Source of the DNA: Ruegeria faecimaris
GTDB taxonomy: Bacteria > Pseudomonadota > Alphaproteobacteria > Rhodobacterales > Rhodobacteraceae
Reading direction: 5' to 3'
DNA length: 64,000 nucleotides
Assembly (NCBI RefSeq): GCF_900182615.1
Contig: NZ_FXTE01000001.1
Span: forward strand, 1,178,001-1,242,000
Made by a program: the position numbers and the translations under genes. The notes under the pieces were generated by a model. That model was not told where the DNA came from, made no database searches, and saw nothing but the letters and a program-made list of their open reading frames with translations. Positions 35,139 through 48,609 of this stretch are shown one piece after another. The first letter of the stretch is position 1. The number at the start of each line of letters is the position of its first letter.

Positions 35139-36260
35139 TCAAATCGATGCTAGGTGGGTGCCTGATCCTTGAGAGACATGCGCGTGTCGTGAATGACTGC
35201 CACGGAGCAACTTTGTCTTAACGTCGGGAGCGGACATAGCATTCATCAACGCACTATAGTTCATTTGGAACTTCATTTCCGATCCTACGCTATGCGTCGA
35301 ATGGTAAGTGCCAACGACAAGATGATCGCTTGTTGCACCAATAAGCCTGTATCCAGGGGGCATCGAAAGCCCCAAAATGTCCGTATCTTGCTGACCAACG
35401 GCCAGAATTATTTGTGTGCTCTGTCCGCTTTTCGGGACGAGGTGAAGTCTTTTGAATACCGGATCGCAGATGCTCTGAGGGTGAGATGCAGGTTTGGACC
35501 CTGTTTCAATTACCTCAGCGACAAGCGTGAAGGCATCCGTATACATCCCGCCTATCTGATCTCCGGAAACCGGATCAACGCCCAGAAGTATTGCTTCCCC
35601 CAGCCTTAGATCATTGATGCGACAAACTGGGTGTCCGCCGAGGGCCCAAGGAAGGTTGGCCGAGTTTCCGCCAGATACAGTGTGAAGGAAGGGACCACAC
35701 TGCCCCTCTGTTTCATTCGCCAGGTCAGATAGGGCCTCCATATCTGCAGCATTCGGGGCAATCCCCCCCAGACATGCAAAGTTCGCTCCGATGCCTTTCA
35801 GCGTAACGCCGGGCATGTCCACCACTTGCTGTGCAACTGAGCCGAGGTCTTTTGGCATGATCCCTTCGCGCAGATCGCCCATCTCAACCATCAGGATAAT
35901 GCCGTGAATGCAGTCTTTCCGGATCGCGGCGGCGGCCAGAGCGGTAATCACGAGGATTTCTGTATTGTAGCTCGCCTCACAGTATTGGATGACCTGATCG
36001 ACCTGGCTCAGCGTTGGTGTACGGATCAATGTGATCGGGCATGTCATGCCCGCGTTGCGTAACCTTCGCACGTTACTAAGCCGCGCTTCCGCAAGCCCCA
36101 CAGCGCCGCCGTCGAGCATAGCCTGAGCGATGGCTGGATGCCCGCACACTGCCTTGGTCACACCGGTGACACCGATGCCGCGTGTCTTGAGGCGCTCGAC
36201 AACAGTCTTCGCATTGTGACGTATCTTGCTCAGATGCACCTCAATGCGAGGGGTACTCAT
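35139..36260 (-). CDS. PLP-dependent alanine/ornithine racemase-like enzyme
   Basis: A 373-residue fold-III PLP enzyme of the alanine racemase N-terminal superfamily. The PLP lysine is in GVTGVTKAVCGHP (about Lys36), HTVSGGNSANLPW and RLGEAILLG are later cofactor or substrate contacts. Relatives include alanine/ornithine racemase (Orr) and YhfX. The reaction could be racemisation or a related PLP chemistry on a D- or L-amino acid. Its ATG overlaps the stop of the DUF1611 gene by 4 bp, so the two proteins are produced together and probably act on the same compound. Confidence 0.82.
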   Translation of the reverse strand: MSTPRIEVHLSKIRHNAKTVVERLKTRGIGVTGVTKAVCGHPAIAQAMLDGGAVGLAEARLSNVRRLRNAGMTCPITLIRTPTLSQVDQVIQYCEASYNTEILVITALAAAAIRKDCIHGIILMVEMGDLREGIMPKDLGSVAQQVVDMPGVTLKGIGANFACLGGIAPNAADMEALSDLANETEGQCGPFLHTVSGGNSANLPWALGGHPVCRINDLRLGEAILLGVDPVSGDQIGGMYTDAFTLVAEVIETGSKPASHPQSICDPVFKRLHLVPKSGQSTQIILAVGQQDTDILGLSMPPGYRLIGATSDHLVVGTYHSTHSVGSEMKFQMNYSALMNAMSAPDVKTKLLRGSHSRHAHVSQGSGTHLASI

Positions 36261-37456
36261 ATCGCAGCCACGGGTGTGGAGTGACGTAACCCAGGGTAAG
36301 CGGCAACAACCATTGCAAGCAAATGCGAAGCCGGCCGGCTGAGTACATCCGTTACAGGCAGCCCGAGTATTTGTGACTGTGCGGCGATCGTGTCGGTTAC
36401 CTCGGCCTCGGACATCCCCTCATGATTGAGCGTGACACCAATGACCTTTGTGTCAGCAAATGCTTCGATTAGGGCAATCTCACTTGCAGGCTTGGGCATC
36501 GGCATATTGGGAAAGTCACAGCGATGCGCGCGCTTTGGAGCGTGCTGGAGGATTACGGCGTCCGGCTGGCTGCCCCGCAGGATAAAGGCGGATGTGCAGA
36601 ATGCCGGATGGCTCAACGCCCCTTGACCTTCGATCAATATGACATCGGGTCGTTCAGACTCGGAAGCGTCGACGATCGCGCCTTCAAGTTCGCCGCAACA
36701 GAACTGCGGTGGTACGGCATCCATTGCCACCCCATATTTTGCACCCTGCATCAAACCTGTCTGGCCCGTACCAACAAGGACAGTCTTGATGCCTCTTGTG
36801 TTCAAGGCACGGGCTAAAACAGTCGCTGTTGTCCGCTTTCCGATGGCGCAGTCGGTCCCAAGAACCGCTATGCGCAGTGCTTTCACACCAGAAATACTTC
36901 CATCGAACAGGCGCATATCCTTGCTGGGTTTGGGTTTGCGAATATCTCGGATGGTGACTTTGCGTTCGACCGCAAAAGAAGCGATTTCTGGATCATCGCC
37001 CAGATATTCATGCAATCCACTGACGATGTTCATACCAAGTGATATCGCGTCGAGAACAACGTCACGATCTGTCGATGAGAGCCTGCCCGTAGATGGTGCC
37101 ATCCCGTAAATGAGGGTATCCGGGATTACAGCTTCATGGACAACAGCAGCGTCCAGACTTCTGAAGACCGGAATGTGGTTTACAGTATCGTCAAGAACCA
37201 ACCCGCTGTCTTTGCCGTCGTGATCGCTATCGATGACAGACAGGATCCTGTAGGCCTCTGAATGGCGAACGAGGCCATTTGCAGTTTTGCCATCCGCCTT
37301 GGCAAAGTTACCTTGGCAATAGACAATCGCAGTTGGCGGCAAGATGATCTGAGTGGCAGAAGTTGATCTTATGGGTTCGTCGCTGGTAAATGGCGGCGCC
37401 TGCGCCCCGCTAACAGGACGACGGATCGTGTTTGCCACGTTAAAGTCGGTTTTCAT
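36257..37456 (-). CDS. DUF1611 / DgcN family protein
   Basis: A 399-residue protein with an N-terminal Rossmann-like domain (ATAIVYCQGNFAKADGKTANG, residues ~41-60) and a C-terminal P-loop domain (LGTDCAIGKRTTA near 215, then ILIEGQGALSHPA). This is the DUF1611 arrangement, a family that includes DgcN, reported as a D-glutamate N-acetyltransferase in D-amino acid breakdown. Whether this member acetylates D-amino acids is inference. AAAGGA lies 7 bp before the ATG. The racemase-like gene follows with a 4-bp overlap, in place of the DgcA enzyme typical of characterised pairs. Confidence 0.78.
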   Translation of the reverse strand: MKTDFNVANTIRRPVSGAQAPPFTSDEPIRSTSATQIILPPTAIVYCQGNFAKADGKTANGLVRHSEAYRILSVIDSDHDGKDSGLVLDDTVNHIPVFRSLDAAVVHEAVIPDTLIYGMAPSTGRLSSTDRDVVLDAISLGMNIVSGLHEYLGDDPEIASFAVERKVTIRDIRKPKPSKDMRLFDGSISGVKALRIAVLGTDCAIGKRTTATVLARALNTRGIKTVLVGTGQTGLMQGAKYGVAMDAVPPQFCCGELEGAIVDASESERPDVILIEGQGALSHPAFCTSAFILRGSQPDAVILQHAPKRAHRCDFPNMPMPKPASEIALIEAFADTKVIGVTLNHEGMSEAEVTDTIAAQSQILGLPVTDVLSRPASHLLAMVVAAYPGLRHSTPVAAI

Positions 37457-39494: not shown

Positions 39495-40136
39495 CTAGCC
39501 ACGACCGATTTCGTCAAGCAATTCGGCTGTCGTCACCTGACGGCAGTAGCCTTTGATCGTTTTCAGGGAATTGTCGTGACGCTCTTGCGTGTAGGTCATG
39601 CAGGCATCCGTCACTTGGGTGACCAGATAGCCCAGATCACAGGCATCGCGAATTGCGCTTTCGACGCATTGATCGGTCACGATCCCTGCCAGCACCAATT
39701 GCTTAATGCCGAGATTGCGCAGCACGTAATCTATGTGGGTCGAGACAAAGACTGAAGACGAAGATTTTGGAAACACGATCTCATCATCGGCTGGTGCCAG
39801 TTCGTCGATCACCTTGCCGTCCCAGGATCCTTTGGGCACGTTGAAGCCCGTGATTTTGTAATCCAGAGATCTGTCGCGCCCGTCTTTGGTCAGACTTTCA
39901 ATCGTTGTATAAAGAACCTCGATTCCCGCCGCGCGAAATCCCTTTTGCAAGGCTTGCATATTAGGTACGATACGGGATTTCAGCTGCTCAAAAAACCAGC
40001 CAAACTTTGCGTCAAAATCGGCATTTGTCAGCCCTTCGAATTCGGCACCATCCCTGTGGGCTGCAAAGTTCTGCACGTCAATAAACAGCAATCCCGATTG
40101 GTCATGTTCTAGTGGAAGATCGCGGGTCAATTCCAT
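39495..40136 (-). CDS. Cysteine hydrolase, isochorismatase-like family
   Basis: A 213-residue hydrolase. The Asp-Lys-Cys triad is visible: LLFIDVQNFA (Asp ~16), VFPKSSSSVF (Lys ~98) and IVTDQCVESAIRDA (Cys ~136). The family comprises amidases such as N-carbamoylsarcosine amidase, nicotinamidase and ureidoacrylate hydrolase, and true isochorismatase. Given divergent placement from the rpiR-led catabolic operon, an amidase that frees ammonia from an intermediate of the same pathway is most likely. A TTG ten codons upstream is rejected in favour of ATG at 40136. Confidence 0.82.
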   Translation of the reverse strand: MELTRDLPLEHDQSGLLFIDVQNFAAHRDGAEFEGLTNADFDAKFGWFFEQLKSRIVPNMQALQKGFRAAGIEVLYTTIESLTKDGRDRSLDYKITGFNVPKGSWDGKVIDELAPADDEIVFPKSSSSVFVSTHIDYVLRNLGIKQLVLAGIVTDQCVESAIRDACDLGYLVTQVTDACMTYTQERHDNSLKTIKGYCRQVTTAELLDEIGRG

Positions 40137-40236
40137 GTCTGTCTCTGCTTTCAAATGTTTGCCCAAGAGGTCTGATTTTATGAATGAGGGCGATCATGAC
40201 GTCCACACTAAAAGAAAATAAAATTCCAAAGTCAAT

Positions 40237-40277
40237 TCAATTTAGATTGACAGAAAATATTTTTCCACCACCATATA
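40237..40277 (+). promoter_or_regulatory. rpiR promoter with two palindromes (probable autoregulatory operator)
   Basis: A consensus -35 TTGACA (40247-40252) is followed after 19 bp by CATATA (40272-40277), a moderate -10, putting the transcription start within a few bases of the rpiR ATG at 40282. The perfect palindrome GAAAA-TAT-TTTTC (40253-40265) fills the spacer, and a second one, TCAAT-TTAG-ATTGA (40237-40250), overlaps the -35. AT-rich GAAA/TTTC palindromes are common for RpiR regulators. The location between divergent genes suggests control of both. Confidence 0.5.
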
Positions 40278-40281
40278 GCGC

Positions 40282-41130
40282 ATGTTGATCAGAGACCGCA
40301 TCGAAAACGCAGCCGATATGCTAACCAGCGGAGAGCGCAAACTTGCTGCAGCTATCCTGTCGGATTACCCATTTGCTGGCCTTTCCTCGATCCAGGAGCT
40401 GGCAAAACACGCCGAGGTGTCACCGCCTTCAATCTCACGGTTTGTTACCAAGATTGGACTTGATGGATATCAGGATTTCCAACGTGATCTTATCGCGGAA
40501 TTGAAAGAAGGGCACCGCTCGCCGGTTCAACTCCACCAGGCGGAACGGCCCGTTCATGGGGGATATCTGAAGGACTTTATTTCCAAATCGGCCAGCCAGA
40601 TGGCCATGGCGGCTGATGCGATCACCGAAGATCAGTTTAACCAGATCTGCGCCCTTCTGACCGACCCGAAACGCAGCGTTTACGTGCTGGGTGGCCGGAT
40701 CAGCGATACGATCGCCAAGCATCTTTCGTTCCACCTGCGTCAGATCCGCAAGGATGTGTTTCATCTGCCTGATACGCCTGAAGGCTGGCCAGAATATCTG
40801 TTGCGGATGCGGCCCGGGGATATCCTTTATGCTGTTGATTTTCGCCGCTACCAACCGGCGCTGGAGCAGCTGTCGCTTGTTGCCTCACGCGATCGGAATG
40901 CCCGTGTGATCCTGATGACGGACAAATGGATTTCACCGATTGCCAAACACGCCCATGAGGTCATGCCGGTGCCAATTGATAGCGGCACCTTGTGGGATAC
41001 TTACTCGGCGGCACTCTCGGTGACCGAGGCCATCGTGACGCGGATTGCCGAGGACAACTGGGAACAGACCCGAGACCGCATCAAGGCCTGGGATGCTTTG
41101 CGCTTTACTCAAGAGGAAAATGAAAAATGA
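40282..41130 (+). CDS. MurR/RpiR family transcriptional regulator
   Basis: A 282-residue regulator with an N-terminal helix-turn-helix of the RpiR type (IQELAKHAEVSPPSISRFV near residues 38-56) and a C-terminal SIS domain (VYVLGGRISDTIAKHLSFHL near 134), which binds phosphosugars or other small ligands. There is no Shine-Dalgarno before the ATG, and a promoter runs up to it, so the mRNA is probably leaderless. It overlaps the next gene by 4 bp, so it heads the catabolic operon. Confidence 0.87.
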   Translation: MLIRDRIENAADMLTSGERKLAAAILSDYPFAGLSSIQELAKHAEVSPPSISRFVTKIGLDGYQDFQRDLIAELKEGHRSPVQLHQAERPVHGGYLKDFISKSASQMAMAADAITEDQFNQICALLTDPKRSVYVLGGRISDTIAKHLSFHLRQIRKDVFHLPDTPEGWPEYLLRMRPGDILYAVDFRRYQPALEQLSLVASRDRNARVILMTDKWISPIAKHAHEVMPVPIDSGTLWDTYSAALSVTEAIVTRIAEDNWEQTRDRIKAWDALRFTQEENEK

Positions 41131-42431
41131 CCCTGCCGCTAATTTTTGCTGCCATATCCGATGTTGCCGGAAAGGTGCGCGGCAAAGCCTTTCCCGCTGA
41201 TCAGTTGGAAAAACGGCTGGTGCGGGGGGTCGGCTGGACCCCTACCAATGTGCAGATCACCTGTTTCGACATAATCGCTGACAGCCCGTTCGGCGCACTA
41301 GGTGATTTGCTTTTGATTCCCGATGCAAACGCAGAGGCCCGGGCGACATTTGGAGATGTGACCGAGCATTTCCTGATGGGCGATGTCGTCACGCTTGACG
41401 GGGATCCTTGGGCCTTTTGTACGCGCGCTATCCTCAAATCCGCGCTGAAGCGCCTGCATGATGTGGCGGGCGTTCATCTGATCTCGGCGTTCGAGCACGA
41501 GTTTCAACTGAAAAGCCCACCGGCGGTGGAAAACCAGGGATACGGACGCGAAGGGTTCGAGATTCAGCGGAAGCTTTGCGAAGTGCTGATGGCGACACTC
41601 GCCGAAAACGGGCTCGAGCCAGACAGTATCATGAAGGAATTCGGCCCCAATCAATACGAGGTCGTTATCGGCCCTGCCAAAGGTGTGCGCTCGGCAGATG
41701 CGGCAGTAATCCTGCGCGAGCTTACTCGCTCGGCAGCGCGTCACCTGGGTGAGGCTGCAACCTTTACGCCAATCCGCGATGTGGCGAGCGTCGGCAATGG
41801 CGTTCATATCCACATGAGCTTTGTCGACGATGCCGGCGAGCCGGTCACATTTGATGCAAGCGGCCCCTGCGGGATGTCCAGACTTACTGATGGGTTCGCT
41901 GCTGGCGTGCTAAAATACCTGCCTAACATTTTAGCGCTGACGGCACCGTCTGTCGTGTCATACGAACGCCTTACTCCGCACCGGTGGTCGGCTGCGTATA
42001 ACAATCTCGGGTTCCGAGACCGCGAGGCCTCGTTAAGGGTCTGCCCTGTGACGGCAAAGGACCCCGCTTCAATCGCCAGACAATTCAACATTGAATACCG
42101 CGCGGCGGATGCAGCGGCGTCGCCTTACCTGGCTTTGGCCGCTGTTGTACATGCTGGTGTTCAGGGGATCGAAGATGGGCTGAAAGCGCCTGCGCCGACC
42201 GAGGAAGACCTGTCACTTCTGTCAGCGGACGATCTCACGGCGCGTGGTTTTGTGCGCCTGCCCGAAACGCTTGAGGCCGCCCTTGAGGCGTTTCAGGCGG
42301 ATACGACAGTCACCGGTTGGTTCGGACCAGATTTCGCGAGCGTCTACGCCGCCCATAAGGCTGCAGAAATCGACGCGGTAAAAGACATGGACACAGCACA
42401 AAAATGCGCCGCGTATGAAGGAACATACTGA
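41127..42431 (+). CDS. Glutamine synthetase-like ligase
   Basis: A 434-residue protein of the glutamine synthetase superfamily, shorter than housekeeping GlnA (about 470). Visible active-site elements are FEHEFQL near residue 122, the FGPNQYEVVIGPA strand near 172, GNGVHIHMSFV near 222 and PHRWSAAYNNLGFRDREA near 285. Related non-canonical members join glutamate to amines such as putrescine or ethanolamine. The ATGA overlap with rpiR and the overlap with the next gene fix it in the operon, where it probably activates or conjugates the imported compound. Confidence 0.85.
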   Translation: MTLPLIFAAISDVAGKVRGKAFPADQLEKRLVRGVGWTPTNVQITCFDIIADSPFGALGDLLLIPDANAEARATFGDVTEHFLMGDVVTLDGDPWAFCTRAILKSALKRLHDVAGVHLISAFEHEFQLKSPPAVENQGYGREGFEIQRKLCEVLMATLAENGLEPDSIMKEFGPNQYEVVIGPAKGVRSADAAVILRELTRSAARHLGEAATFTPIRDVASVGNGVHIHMSFVDDAGEPVTFDASGPCGMSRLTDGFAAGVLKYLPNILALTAPSVVSYERLTPHRWSAAYNNLGFRDREASLRVCPVTAKDPASIARQFNIEYRAADAAASPYLALAAVVHAGVQGIEDGLKAPAPTEEDLSLLSADDLTARGFVRLPETLEAALEAFQADTTVTGWFGPDFASVYAAHKAAEIDAVKDMDTAQKCAAYEGTY

Positions 42432-43200
42432 TGAGCGCGCCCTCTGACAGAGCATTGGTTCCATTTGTCAGCGTCGAAAACATGCGGGCCCTGGTCCATA
42501 AGCATGGCCTACGGGACTGCCTTGCAGGATTGGCCAATATGATCGAAGCCGATTTCAAACGCTGGCCGGTATTTGACAAAACACCGCGCGTTGCGTCCCA
42601 TTCTAAGGCGGGTGTGATTGAACTGATGCCAACCTCTGATGGTGTGGATCACACCTTCAAGTCCGCGAACGGGCACCGATCGAACACCAAGGTCGGCCTG
42701 CAAACCCTAACCGCCGTTGGTGTGCTGGCCTCTGTTGATACCGTCTATCCACAGCCCTTTTCTGAAATGACCCTTCTGACGGCGCTTCGCACGGTGGCAA
42801 CATCGGCGATGGTGACGCGTATACTGGCCCCCAAATCAGCTAAAACCGCTGCGAGTATCGGCAACGGGATATTCTGATGCGCAATGACATTTCTGTAGAG
42901 TACCCAAAACAGACGCGCATCAAGGGCGATATCCAGCAACTCGACCCGGATCACGCGGTCAACGAACTGTGGCAGGTTCTAACCGGTTCTAAAAAGGGAC
43001 GAACCTCCGAAGATCAGATCACGGTTTTTGATGGTGTTGGCTTTGTGGTCGAGGATTTCTCGGCCACGCGCTGGCTGCACCAAAAAGCGACTGACGGCGC
43101 CCCAAGCGAAATGCTGGATCTGGTTGCCGACCCGCACGACCCCAAGGATCTGCTCGGTATGATAAGACGATGCACACACCGTGCGGTCCAAGCTGCATGA
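42431..43200 (+). pseudogene. Ornithine cyclodeaminase family gene broken by an internal deletion
   Basis: Two adjoining frames encode the two ends of one ornithine cyclodeaminase/mu-crystallin protein. The first (42431-42877, 148 residues) covers the substrate-binding start, including NGHRSNTKVGLQTLTA and EMTLLTALRTVATSA, and ends just after IGNG, the glycine loop of the NAD domain. The second (42877-43200) resumes at DISVEYPKQTRIKGDIQQL, near the end of that domain, and runs to the C-terminus. About 95-100 residues of the Rossmann fold are missing and the frame shifts at the junction, so no active enzyme should result. The two parts overlap by a TGATG, so both pieces may still be translated. 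The family forms proline from ornithine or acts on related amino acids. Confidence 0.82.
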
Positions 43201-43967
43201 ATTTGTGTACTCATACCTTATTGGGGCCGAACGATCCTGCGCCGATTGACGTCGTTAATGCAGATAGCACGTCGGAGATCGTGCTGCTGTGTGAGCATGC
43301 AGGCAATGCAGTCCCCGAGATGCTTGGAGATTTGGGAGTCTCCCGCGACGTCATTGAAAGCCACCGCGGCTGGGACATTGGTGCTCAGGATGTAGCGCGC
43401 CAGTTGGCTGAACAGTTGAACGCGCCTCTCGTCGTCCAAAATTACTCACGGCTGGTATTTGACTGTAACCGTCCCCCTGACAGCCCCTTGGCGGTCCCTG
43501 CGATCAGCGACCAGGTTGAGGTGCCGGGTAACAGCGCGATCACCGAATTGAGCCGGGCCATGCGTGTCGATGAAATCTTTCGACCTATGGATGCAGAGTT
43601 GAATCGGCTCTTTGCCAACCGTCCGCGTCGTGCCGCGTTTTCGATCCATTCCTTTACACCGCATCTCGATGGCAAGGACCGGCCTTGGCAGGCAGGCTTT
43701 TTAAGCCGCGGAACAGGCGGTGCTGCCAAAGCATTGATGGCACATATCGCGCAGCGCCGCCCTGACATGGCCTTTGCGTTGAACAAGCCCTATCAGATCG
43801 AAACTGAGGGCGATTGGTTTATTCCAGCGCATGCAGAACCCCGTGAGCTTGTGCATTGCCTGATTGAAATTCGAAACGATCAAATCCGCGAACAATCGCA
43901 AGTCGGGCTGTGGGCGGATCTGCTGGCAGACGCAATCCTTACAGCAGTAGGGGACATTCCCTCATGA
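43197..43967 (+). CDS. N-formylglutamate amidohydrolase family protein
   Basis: A 256-residue member of the N-formylglutamate amidohydrolase (FGase) family. IVLLCEHAGNAVP near residue 28, SHRGWDIGAQDVA near 54 and FSIHSFTPHLDGKDRPW near 156 carry the conserved Glu/His residues thought to bind zinc. HutG-type enzymes release formate from N-formylglutamate; in operons without histidine genes the substrate is probably another N-acyl or gamma-glutamyl amino acid. There are no hut genes nearby. Its start overlaps the preceding stop by ATGA, and it overlaps the transporter gene the same way. Confidence 0.85.
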   Translation: MNLCTHTLLGPNDPAPIDVVNADSTSEIVLLCEHAGNAVPEMLGDLGVSRDVIESHRGWDIGAQDVARQLAEQLNAPLVVQNYSRLVFDCNRPPDSPLAVPAISDQVEVPGNSAITELSRAMRVDEIFRPMDAELNRLFANRPRRAAFSIHSFTPHLDGKDRPWQAGFLSRGTGGAAKALMAHIAQRRPDMAFALNKPYQIETEGDWFIPAHAEPRELVHCLIEIRNDQIREQSQVGLWADLLADAILTAVGDIPS

Positions 43968-45844
43968 GCATCGTCCCCCTTCATACACATCCCGGACGCT
44001 TGCGGGCGTCCAACTTGCTCCGGACGGCGGCGGCGGTTGCTGTGCTGCTGGCTGTGGTGCTTGGGCTGACGTTGATTTTTGGACGCACTGGCGAGCGGAT
44101 TGCTGTACAGATGTGTGTCAATGTGGTCGCTGTAGTGGCCCTTGCGGTTTATTGCGGCAACACGGGCATTGTGTCTTTCGGGCATGGCGCGTTTTTGGCG
44201 CTAGGCGCTTATCTGTCAGGCATTCTCACCATGCCTGCTGCTCTTCAACGTTCTGCCCTGCCGGATCTTCCGTCATTTCTGGCAGGCCATGAAGTAACGA
44301 TCTGGGTGTCGCTGCCGGTGGTCGCCCTTGCGGGACTTGCCTTTGCAGCCCTAACCGGAAGCGCCATCGCTCGGCTTGTGGGTGCGTCTGCCACGATTGC
44401 CACGCTTGGCCTGCTGATCATCGCCCATGGCGTGGCCATCGCCGCACGCGAGATCACACGCGGCAGCCAGACGTTTTACGGTGTGCCAAGGGTGACAGAC
44501 CTGGTTCTGGCCCTCGGCGCGGCCACGAGTGCAATCCTGCTGGCCCGTTGGTATCGCGAAAGCCGTTTGGGTCTGTTTTCCCGCGCGGCCCGTGACGATG
44601 AGGATGCCGCAACAGCACTTGGCATCAATGCCCGACGCACAAGATTCATTGCTTGGTGTGCCTCTGGTACCATGGCGACAGTCGCGGGTGCACTTTATGG
44701 GCATATGCTGGGGGCATTTTCACCCGCATCCTTCTACCTTGGGCTCGTCTTTGCGCAAGTGGTCATGATGATTGTCGGTGGAATGTCATCGGTTGGCGGC
44801 GCAGTGGTCGGGGTGATCGCGGTGACGCTGCTGCAGGACACTGTGCGCCAGTTCGAAGGCGGCTCAACTGTGCTTGGCGTCACCTTGCCCGAGGTCTTTG
44901 GCCTGACGACGATTGTCCTGGGGCTTGCCATCCTGCTGGTGATCTGGGCGCGACCTCAGGGTCTGGTCGGAGGCTTTGAACTTGGCCCTGGCGCGGATGC
45001 AAATCTGCTCGGGCGCCTGAAGCCCCGAGTAACTCCTGCGCGCACGCCCGAGTCCGTCGTCCCAGCCACGCTGAAAGCATCAAACCTGTCAAAAAGTTTC
45101 GCAGGCGTCAAAGCCGTAAGAGACGTCAGTTTCGAAGCTCCGACTGGGCGCATCACTGGCCTGATTGGCCCCAACGGTGCTGGCAAGTCCACGCTTGTTA
45201 ACTTGCTGACACGCGCCTATCAGGCGGACACCGGTTCTGCGCATATGGGCGAGGTTGATTTGACCCGTGTCTCGCATCACAAAGTGCCAGGCTTTGGTGT
45301 CTCGCGTAGCTTCCAAAACTTGCGCCTGTTCAGCGGTCTGACAGCCTACGAAAATGTTCTTGTTGCCGCTTTGGCCGCAGGTCACGACCGCAAGACTGCC
45401 GCGGCTATCACGCTGCGTGAACTGGATGCCTTTGATCTTGGGGAAGTCGCCGGGTATCGCGCCGACGGCCTGCCATATGGTGCCCGCAAGCGCCTGGAAA
45501 TCGCCCGCGCTTTGGCACAAGACCCGAAGATTCTTTTACTGGATGAACCGGCCGCTGGCATGAATCCCAGCGAAACAGATGACCTGGCTGATCGGCTGAT
45601 TAAGGTCGGCAAAACACGCGGCATCGGTGTCCTTCTGATCGATCATGACCTGAGGTTCGTGAACCGCCTGTCGGACTGGATCGTGGTGATGCACCAAGGT
45701 GGCGTCATCGCGCAAGGCACGCCTGAAGACGTGCGCGCAAATCCCAAAGTCATCGAGGCTTACATCGGCAAAGGGCGCACAGCCCAAAAAGCAGAAATTA
45801 GCGAAACCAACCGAAGTCAACCAACAGAGGTAGCAATAAAATGA
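43964..45844 (+). CDS. Fused branched-chain amino acid-type ABC permease and ATPase (LivM-LivG)
   Basis: A 626-residue fusion. Residues 1-350 form a LivM-like permease with about nine membrane helices (FGHGAFLALGAYL near 80, then SSVGGAVVGVIAV). Residues 365-626 form a LivG-like ATPase: Walker A GPNGAGKST near 402, signature segment YGARKRLEIARALA, Walker B ILLLDEPAAGMNP, and the LivG-typical RSFQNLRLFSGLTAYENV. Liv importers take up branched-chain or other hydrophobic amino acids, urea and short amides. Normally the two are separate chains; fusion fixes 1:1 stoichiometry. The start at 43964 uses the ATGA overlap with the amidohydrolase gene. Confidence 0.92.
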   Translation: MSIVPLHTHPGRLRASNLLRTAAAVAVLLAVVLGLTLIFGRTGERIAVQMCVNVVAVVALAVYCGNTGIVSFGHGAFLALGAYLSGILTMPAALQRSALPDLPSFLAGHEVTIWVSLPVVALAGLAFAALTGSAIARLVGASATIATLGLLIIAHGVAIAAREITRGSQTFYGVPRVTDLVLALGAATSAILLARWYRESRLGLFSRAARDDEDAATALGINARRTRFIAWCASGTMATVAGALYGHMLGAFSPASFYLGLVFAQVVMMIVGGMSSVGGAVVGVIAVTLLQDTVRQFEGGSTVLGVTLPEVFGLTTIVLGLAILLVIWARPQGLVGGFELGPGADANLLGRLKPRVTPARTPESVVPATLKASNLSKSFAGVKAVRDVSFEAPTGRITGLIGPNGAGKSTLVNLLTRAYQADTGSAHMGEVDLTRVSHHKVPGFGVSRSFQNLRLFSGLTAYENVLVAALAAGHDRKTAAAITLRELDAFDLGEVAGYRADGLPYGARKRLEIARALAQDPKILLLDEPAAGMNPSETDDLADRLIKVGKTRGIGVLLIDHDLRFVNRLSDWIVVMHQGGVIAQGTPEDVRANPKVIEAYIGKGRTAQKAEISETNRSQPTEVAIK

Positions 45845-46992
45845 TACGTAATGCCCTTCTTCTTTCAACAGCAGTTATCACCGGCCTGGCTGGAACAGCG
45901 ATGGCTGAGAGTTATAAAATCGGCGTAATGTCCGCGCAATCGGGCTATCTGGCCCCCTATGATGGACCCGCCTATGCCGGGTTCCAGTTCTGCATTGACG
46001 AAATGAACGCCAAGGGGGGCCTGAACGGCACAACACCGGTTGAGCTGATCGTGCGCGACACCCGGTCTGACATCGCCGAAGGCGTTAAAGTCGTACAGGA
46101 AATGATCGATGACGGCGCGCAGTTCATCGTGGCGTCAGCCGATGCCGATCCGACAATCGCCGCGGCCCAGATCACAGCGGCTGACAGCATCCCAACAATG
46201 ACCTTTGCCGGAACAGCCCCGGTTCTGACGCAAGTCGGTGAACATGTCTTTGGCAGTTACCCTGCGGACAACCAACAGGCCGCCGTACTGGCAGGCCACG
46301 CACGCGAGCAAGGGTTCGAACGTGTCTGGCTCGTGAAATCCCCAGACAGTGCCTACACATTGGGTGGGCCCGAGTACTTTGGCGAGGCCTTCACATCGCT
46401 TGGTGGTGCCGTTGTCGGGGAAAGCAACTATTCGCTGAACCAGCCGGACTTTTCTGCCATCGTGACGACCATCAAGAATGCGGATACCACCCCGGATGTG
46501 ATCGTCACATGGGCTTGGGAGCCTGATTTCCCGGCCTTCATCCGTGCGCTGCGCGGTGCCGGGGTTGATACCCAGGTGATGGGAGGTGACGTACTCGATT
46601 CACCAACCGTACGCGGCCTTGGTGATGTCGTCACAGGCGTAGCGCATACATCTGGTGGCTTCCCAGACGAAGGCTCTGCCTATGCCGATTTCATCGCTCG
46701 GTTCTCTGCTGCAAAGGGGATCACGCCTGACAACAATTACTACGTCAATGGCTGCGATATTGCGCATATGATCGAGGATGCTGTCGCAGCGGCTGGCACG
46801 ACAGACCCTGCTGCCGTGACTGCCGCAATGGCCGGCATTGAGAATGGTGAGGGTATCATGTCCAACTTCACTTTCGCGGGGACCGACCGGATGCCTCTGC
46901 GTGATGTTGTGGTCGCGCGGATTACCGATGCAGGCGAAAAAGAGTTTGTCCTGCGCACCTCAGCTGATCCCGCAATCCTGCCACAGCCGTAA
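45841..46992 (+). CDS. Periplasmic substrate-binding protein of Liv-type ABC transporter
   Basis: A 383-residue binding protein with a Sec signal peptide (hydrophobic core LLLSTAVITGLAG, cleavage after AMA near residue 22). YKIGVMSAQSGYLAPYDGPA and NAKGGLNGTTPVELIVRDTRSD are the usual opening of the amide/branched-chain amino acid-binding family (Peripla_BP_6). It delivers the substrate to the LivM-type and LivH-type permeases. It overlaps the fused transporter gene by 4 bp. The binding cleft is not characterised enough to name the ligand. Confidence 0.93.
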   Translation: MIRNALLLSTAVITGLAGTAMAESYKIGVMSAQSGYLAPYDGPAYAGFQFCIDEMNAKGGLNGTTPVELIVRDTRSDIAEGVKVVQEMIDDGAQFIVASADADPTIAAAQITAADSIPTMTFAGTAPVLTQVGEHVFGSYPADNQQAAVLAGHAREQGFERVWLVKSPDSAYTLGGPEYFGEAFTSLGGAVVGESNYSLNQPDFSAIVTTIKNADTTPDVIVTWAWEPDFPAFIRALRGAGVDTQVMGGDVLDSPTVRGLGDVVTGVAHTSGGFPDEGSAYADFIARFSAAKGITPDNNYYVNGCDIAHMIEDAVAAAGTTDPAAVTAAMAGIENGEGIMSNFTFAGTDRMPLRDVVVARITDAGEKEFVLRTSADPAILPQP

Positions 46993-47004
46993 GGTCTGAA
47001 CCCA

Positions 47005-47718
47005 ATGGAAACAGCACTCGATATCCAAGGCTTGCACGTCCGCTATGGCCCAATCCGCGCGGTTCAGGGCATTGACCTGATCGTCCCCAAAGGCGGCATA
47101 ACGGCGCTTTTAGGGGCCAATGGCGCAGGCAAGACAACGACGGTCATGGCCATCGCAGGTGCTTTGCCCGTGGTATCGGGCGCTGTTTCCCTTTTTGGCA
47201 AGGATATGACAGGGGCCAAACCCGACGCCATTGTGCGGGCGGGTGTGGCCATCTCACCGGAAGGACGCCGCGTGTTTGCGCAGCTGACGGTCGAAGAAAA
47301 TCTTTTGCTGGCCGGATCAATTCTGGGCGACGAGAAGCTCAGCGCCAAACGTTTGGCCGAGATGAAAGAGCGTTTCCCGATCCTGGGCGAACGCCGCCGT
47401 CAGATGGCGGGGCTTTTGTCGGGGGGCGAACAACAGATGCTGGCGGTGGGACGTGCCTTGATGAGCGGACCGCGCTTGCTGTTGCTGGACGAACCGTCGC
47501 TTGGTCTTGCGCCGCAGGTCGTGGATCAGATTTTCGACATCGTAGAAGAATTGAAAGCCGACGGTATTTCAGTGCTTCTGGTCGAGCAAAACGCGGCTCT
47601 TGCCCTGGACATTGCCGATCATGCCGTGGTGCTGGCGAATGGCGCTGTTGCCGCTGCCGGTGCACCATCGGAACTAGCAAATGACGCGGTCTTGCAATCC
47701 GCATATCTGGCGGCTTGA
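47005..47718 (+). CDS. ABC transporter ATPase, LivF type
   Basis: A 237-residue ATPase with Walker A GANGAGKTTT near residue 37, signature LSGGEQQMLAVGRALM, and Walker B LLLLDEPSLGLAP. EGRRVFAQLTVEENL is the LivF-type Q-loop region. Together with the ATPase half of the fused protein it makes the heterodimeric motor of the importer. It begins 12 bp after the binding-protein gene and ends 3 bp before the LivH-type permease gene. Confidence 0.93.
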   Translation: METALDIQGLHVRYGPIRAVQGIDLIVPKGGITALLGANGAGKTTTVMAIAGALPVVSGAVSLFGKDMTGAKPDAIVRAGVAISPEGRRVFAQLTVEENLLLAGSILGDEKLSAKRLAEMKERFPILGERRRQMAGLLSGGEQQMLAVGRALMSGPRLLLLDEPSLGLAPQVVDQIFDIVEELKADGISVLLVEQNAALALDIADHAVVLANGAVAAAGAPSELANDAVLQSAYLAA

Positions 47719-47721
47719 GCG

Positions 47722-48609
47722 ATGGAAGTTCTTCTTCAACAAATGATCAACGCGCTTAGCCTTGGGGGAATTTATGCGATGCTGGCCCTGGGGCTGGCGA
47801 TTGTGTTCTCTATTGTGCGGTTGATCAATTTCGCGCATGGCGAAATCATGACTTTTGGGGGCTATGGCATCTTTCTGGCCATGAGCTTTGGCCTGCCGCC
47901 GATCGCCGCTCTTGTTGTCGGGCTTGGCGCTTCTGTGTTCATGGCCATGGCAATGGAGCGTACAGCGTTTCGCGCCATGCGCGGCGCGGATGTCGTTGCA
48001 CTTTTGATCACATCTTTCGCGGTGTCCGAGATCCTCAAAGTTCTGTTCCAGAACGGAATTTCCGCCAGACCCGTCCCGATCTCTTTTCCAGCGTCATGGT
48101 CTGGCACTTATCATATCGGCCAGACGACATTTGGCATTATCCCGACCGTATCAATCATAGTAACATTTTCAGCCCTTGCAGGCCTGACATTCGTGTTGCG
48201 GCGCACAACGATTGGCATGGCCATGCGCGCCGCTGCCGAAGATATCGAGATGCTCAAACTGCTGGGTATCAAGGCCAACCGGGTCGTTGCTGTGGCTTTT
48301 GCCCTGTCAGGGCTACTTGCGGGTATTGCCGCTGTCATCTGGACGGCACAACGCGGGTCAGTGGATCCACTGATGGGATTTTTCCCCGTTCTCAAGGCCT
48401 TCATTGCGACCGTACTTGGGGGTTTGGGCAGCTTGGGCGGCGCTGTCCTTGGTGGGTTCATCGTCGGCGGGCTGGAGGTTCTGCTACAGGCTTTCCTGCC
48501 AGACAGTCTGGCCCCATACCGGGATGCAATGGTTCTGGCCTCAGTCATCTTGTTGTTGCTGTTACGCCCGGATGGCCTCCTTCCAGCGGCGAATGCCAAC
48601 AGATCGTAA
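47722..48609 (+). CDS. ABC transporter permease, LivH type
   Basis: A 295-residue permease with about eight membrane helices. LSLGGIYAMLALGLAIVFSI near the start, INFAHGEIMTFGGYG near 35 and the EAA-like loop AAAEDIEMLKLLGIKAN near 170 identify the LivH family. It is the last gene of the operon, which runs unbroken from rpiR at 40282. The long gap after it contains no recognisable intrinsic terminator. Confidence 0.93.
   Translation: MEVLLQQMINALSLGGIYAMLALGLAIVFSIVRLINFAHGEIMTFGGYGIFLAMSFGLPPIAALVVGLGASVFMAMAMERTAFRAMRGADVVALLITSFAVSEILKVLFQNGISARPVPISFPASWSGTYHIGQTTFGIIPTVSIIVTFSALAGLTFVLRRTTIGMAMRAAAEDIEMLKLLGIKANRVVAVAFALSGLLAGIAAVIWTAQRGSVDPLMGFFPVLKAFIATVLGGLGSLGGAVLGGFIVGGLEVLLQAFLPDSLAPYRDAMVLASVILLLLLRPDGLLPAANANRS

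Follow-up and report, generated by a model that had tools for sequence, protein, structure and literature searches.

Deletion-derived pseudogenes inside operons are a known general kind in bacteria. The gene described here is like them in having an internal deletion, a frameshift, an intact paralogue and a lesion that is shared by none of the relatives listed. Unlike the general case, an overlapping stop and start codon keeps both of its halves open, and translation of downstream genes may continue. The gene belongs to the ornithine cyclodeaminases (OCDs), and its closest described counterparts are the long-type OCDs (NF005762/PRK07589; PF02423), including the Pseudomonas putida enzyme (1u7h/1x7d). 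In a computational study of P. putida OCD (PMC3497308), the substrate proton is transferred to Asp228 while the hydride goes to NAD+, and Glu56, Lys69 and Arg112 are named as substrate-side residues. The gene described here resembles the long-type OCDs in the sequence of both of its fragments and in the order of what remains. It differs from them in lacking 97 residues, in its broken frame, in having neither the NAD loop nor an equivalent of Asp228, and in the alteration of 12 of 97 invariant positions. We refer to the analyzed stretch of DNA, 64,000 nt from Ruegeria faecimaris (contig NZ_FXTE01000001.1, positions 1,178,001 to 1,242,000), as “the window”, and all positions are given relative to its first base.

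Operon context

The operon lies on the plus strand and begins with an RpiR-type regulator gene (40282–41130; PF01418 and PF01380). The second gene (41127–42431), the upstream neighbor of the OCD gene, is open and encodes a glutamine-synthetase-like ligase (GS; PF00120, 2.2e-68); its best NCBIfam model is gamma-glutamylputrescine synthetase (NF045547), with a score of 257.9 bits that lies under the cut-off of 650. The GS stop codon and the OCD start codon overlap in a TGATG configuration. Downstream of the OCD gene, the ATG of an N-formylglutamate amidohydrolase-like gene (FGase, 43197–43967; PF05013, 3.6e-31) overlaps the OCD stop codon, with 4 nt shared; the FGase start was selected from this ATGA overlap and from alignments of homologues. 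The operon continues with genes for a branched-chain-amino-acid-type ABC transporter (43964–48609), i.e., a fused permease-ATPase, a solute-binding protein, a LivF-like protein and a LivH-like protein. A divergent gene for an isochorismatase-family hydrolase (39495–40166, minus strand; PF00857, 2.4e-35) is a frequent companion of the operon in relatives. The initial annotation described the rest of the operon as intact and tightly overlapped, and this description holds: the other genes are open, and neighbors from the RpiR gene through the solute-binding protein gene overlap by 1–4 nt, although two of the start codons behind these figures were themselves chosen from the overlap.

Internal deletion in the OCD gene

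Positions 42431–43200 hold an OCD gene without its central part. The N-terminal fragment (42431–42877; 148 aa) is homologous to intact OCDs up to the glycine loop motif IGNG (42857–42868), after which two more codons and a TGA follow. The C-terminal fragment (42877–43200; 107 aa) is in a different frame, and its homology begins 12 nt upstream of its ATG. Both frames are open, and they overlap by a single base. Against PF02423, the N-terminal fragment matches positions 6–139 of 314 (1.5e-33) and the C-terminal fragment positions 241–312 of 314 (1.8e-22). Against the OCD equivalog NF005762, the corresponding matches cover positions 1–137 (1.9e-54) and 240–334 (2e-34) of 334. The whole-protein cut-off of this model, 350 bits, is reached by neither fragment (184.8 and 119.1 bits); the intact OCDs of loci L001, L101, L088 and L122 score 513.4 to 567.9 bits. 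That the two pieces match one curated OCD family at complementary positions argues for a deletion.

Alignment with intact relatives places the joint at about 42865–42868, where the final codon of IGNG and the Arg codon of RDIL (42865–42876, other frame) share bases. Homology restarts at RDILMRNDISVEYP in the downstream frame, four codons ahead of the ATG. The initial annotation was therefore right that the N-terminal part ends directly after IGNG, whereas the resumption point that it gave, DISVEYP, has to be moved upstream to RDIL. Its estimate of ~95–100 missing residues was also accurate. IGNG and RDIL are 97 residues apart in all six intact relatives measured by script; a row for L163 (138 residues) was left out of this count because an earlier GNG had been matched, and its alignment shows the normal arrangement. 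The net deletion is 295 nt, reflecting 303 nt between the matched positions in L101 versus 8 nt in the window. Since 295 mod 3 = 1, the frame changes at the joint, as had been reported. These alignments support the loss of the middle of the OCD gene through an internal deletion.

Predicted loss of enzyme activity

By manual count on the alignment, the missing part corresponds to residues 139–236 of P. putida OCD (1u7h/1x7d). Because homology breaks after IGNG and restarts at RDIL, the NAD-binding loop GNGAQ and the dinucleotide-binding core that follows it are missing. Residues 139–236 presumably cover most of the dinucleotide-binding core of the P. putida enzyme. The Asp of GGDCPGK, equivalent to Asp228, also falls in the deleted part. 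By contrast with these losses, the N-terminal fragment retains the aligned positions of Glu56, Lys69 and Arg112. With the NAD loop and the Asp228 equivalent gone, the gene product is very unlikely to be active as an OCD, a strong inference from the alignment.

OCD as an optional member of the operon

A search for a second OCD gene in the genome, which the initial annotation had suggested, identified an intact OCD gene (L001) on the same contig as the window; it scores 567.9 bits against the cut-off of 350. There are five other PF02423 matches in the genome, each extending past the missing middle. Across the genus, the N-terminal fragment was matched in all 54 genomes, that of R. faecimaris included. 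The GS genes of four of these genomes agree without a mismatch across 1200 bases with loci in named Ruegeria records, and the genus was accordingly taken as Ruegeria.

GS itself is found in only 8 of the 54 genus genomes, again counting R. faecimaris (E-values up to 1e-100), and the GS of one of these, G020, is only 42% identical. Among the other seven GS-bearing genus genomes, G051 alone has an OCD gene adjoining GS (1.5 kb flanks). In a broader set of 80 GS loci from named genomes, which includes one (L107) that ends at GS and so has no readable downstream side, an OCD gene lies beside or near GS in seven: directly after GS in six and ~1.3 kb further in one. None of 20 FGase-centered loci shows an OCD gene, but for five of these (L071, L077, L080, L081 and L084) the sequence covered includes <400 bases after GS or no GS, and since some of the 20 are GS loci already counted, we did not take them as separate evidence. 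Given its rarity near GS, OCD is an optional passenger of this operon. The proposal that the pathway has recently lost this step is not borne out, because OCD is not found near GS in most relatives of the operon and an intact OCD gene lies elsewhere in the genome. More generally, where the gene concerned is optional and duplicated, its breakage within an otherwise orderly operon does not have to imply that the pathway is missing a step.

Additional OCD copies were seen in other genomes. At L088 (G052:C10), two more copies with normal spacing lie ~10 kb apart on one contig (7628–8644 and 17592–18626). At L036 (G030:C28, ~1504–2315), a second OCD copy, located at one end of a contig of 6.6 kb, has an internal TAG and a frame switch around GGDCPGK; it is perhaps another decaying spare OCD, in a different genus genome.

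Origin of the window copy

In a tree of 11 taxa, the window OCD and the OCD copies linked to GS in L101 and L122 form one group (ultrafast bootstrap 95 for this split). The L101 and L122 genes share their position after GS with the window copy, and L101 also has the same one-base TGATG overlap of GS and OCD. This grouping and the common overlap indicate that the window copy was once an ordinary intact gene. The GS-linked OCDs of L089, L154 and L163 are placed elsewhere in the same tree, in which deeper nodes are weakly supported, and OCD may have become linked to this GS on more than one occasion. The surroundings differ between the loci: the OCD gene of the window is followed on its own strand by FGase and the transporter genes, but L101 and L122 carry FGase on the divergent side. 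Due to this difference in arrangement, the window OCD sits mid-operon.

Signs of decay or constraint

We compared the window copy with intact OCDs at invariant alignment columns. A total of 43 OCD sequences were extracted; L002 and L005 fell below the 200-residue alignment filter of this step. L003, L004, L009, L021 and L036 were removed before alignment (L009 and L021 are the same loci as L088 and L089, and L036 has an internal stop). Removal of L013, L034 and L131, which have short or odd starts, left 35 sequences, and from these, 12 representatives under 88% identity were retained. Of 97 columns invariant across these representatives, the window copy alters 12, which lie on both sides of the joint; among the substitutions are P to R, G to V, L to P and E to K. 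When each intact representative was compared with the rest, between 0 and 9 of 97 to 106 invariant columns were altered. The excess in the window copy is modest, since the maximum, 9 of 106, belongs to the intact L122.

Decay does not appear advanced, because both frames are still open and the third-position G+C of the fragments (0.60 and 0.59) is similar to that of the neighboring genes. A two-ratio codon model with eight taxa gave an omega of 0.064 for the window branch versus 0.020, a difference that is not significant (2dlnL 1.2) in a test that used a home-made optimizer and, with dS saturated at such distance, was without power. With intact genes as foreground, the same model gave 0.070 for L122 (2dlnL 0.8), 0.112 for L089 (2dlnL 1.9) and 0.014 for L101. 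With the intact L122 and L089 giving omegas as high or higher, this test does not distinguish the window copy from intact genes. The pattern would fit mostly purifying selection in the past, with at most a brief relaxed phase, and a fairly recent deletion, but it is suggestive only.

Probable inactivation of a redundant copy by deletion

Intact relatives are available for comparison (L101, L122 and L001), and the lesion is shared by no other genome among the matches listed; together, these observations are those expected of a deletion-derived pseudogene. We consider it very probable that the window holds a redundant, operon-linked OCD copy that was inactivated by one internal deletion, 295 bases net, and that this loss was tolerated. 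A single event in this spare second copy, perhaps between short repeats of ~3 bases (CGG), would have taken out what followed IGNG in the NAD-binding loop, together with most of the dinucleotide-binding core and the counterpart of Asp228, while shifting the frame. The deletion may have been tolerated since OCD is optional in the operon and the contig carries an intact OCD gene at another site. Ribosomes that end translation of the N-terminal fragment could restart at the overlapping ATG and then reach FGase, and the downstream operon is thus probably not silenced. In this marine bacterium, the locus looks like ordinary gene decay of a spare copy of a common enzyme of amino-acid metabolism. Of the overall interpretation in the initial annotation, the loss of an enzyme by internal deletion is supported; the lost pathway step and the new role for the frames are not.

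Overlapping stop and start codons at the joint

The stop codon of the N-terminal fragment and the start codon of the C-terminal fragment form a TGATG (42875–42879) in which a single base, 42877, completes the TGA that ends the first frame and begins the ATG that opens the second. Across 44 relatives, the residue at the position of this ATG is Leu in 40, Asn in two, Glu in one and Thr in one, and Met in none; the 44 are those parsed of 57 distinct segments, and one with Leu, L091, comes from a broken copy. The change at 42877 could be compensatory. In an addition to the decay of a redundant copy, and compatible with it, the base may have changed after the deletion, turning a conserved Leu codon into a stop/start overlap, with the fragments of the dead gene doing nothing themselves and being kept only so that ribosomes continue to FGase and the transporter genes. 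The mid-operon, codirectional position of OCD in the window, as opposed to L101 and L122, is consistent with this idea, as is the absence of such an overlap at the first stop of L101 and L122 when these are read in the shifted frame. However, when 43 intact relatives were read in the shifted frame as a control, 26 had a first stop that overlapped a start codon (ATG, GTG or TTG), which was ATG in six of them. Overlaps of this kind arise readily, so selection need not be invoked, and the TGATG at the joint is weakened as evidence of selection. Moreover, the Leu-to-Met change could predate the deletion. We therefore regard a compensatory change with retention of the fragments as a ribosome relay as unlikely. 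If it did occur, the locus would illustrate on a small scale, in nature, how an operon can survive when a deletion shifts the frame of one of its middle genes.

Other explanations

An assembly or sequencing artefact, with the gene intact in the organism, is improbable to a greater degree. The genome is a draft of 38 contigs, but the joint sits within a contig of 1.26 Mb, and no loose OCD middle piece was found elsewhere in the genome (E-values up to 0.001). In addition, the base that makes the ATG and the TGA differs from that of the 44 parsed relatives, and the altered invariant positions on either side of the joint fit, though modestly, a gene that is truly changing.

Least probable of all is the suggestion, made in the initial annotation, that the two short frames now do something else, e.g., bind substrate as a split protein or pair with the intact OCD without catalysis; the frames are open and coupled and the N-terminal fragment keeps the Glu56, Lys69 and Arg112 positions, but the split form occurs in no other genome among the matches listed, several of the 12 substitutions at invariant columns, which flank the joint on either side, are radical, and the residual Rossmann domain would be incomplete.

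Conservation of the wider operon

The RpiR regulator, GS-like ligase, FGase-like protein, isochorismatase-like protein and branched-chain-type ABC transporter (39495–48609 in the window) form a recurrent, mostly alphaproteobacterial set (L068–L171). Within the literature library searched, no paper treats OCD jointly with N-formylglutamate amidohydrolase, glutamine synthetase and isochorismatase. Among plasmid records, 305 had a match; none reached 80% coverage of the query, and the 20 that were listed match over the GS gene. The transporter permease and ATPase are fused in one gene in the window (43964–45844); they are fused in several relatives and separate in others. Near the operon, on the minus strand (35139–37456), ornithine-racemase-like and DgcN-like genes, both scoring under curated cut-offs, overlap by four bases.
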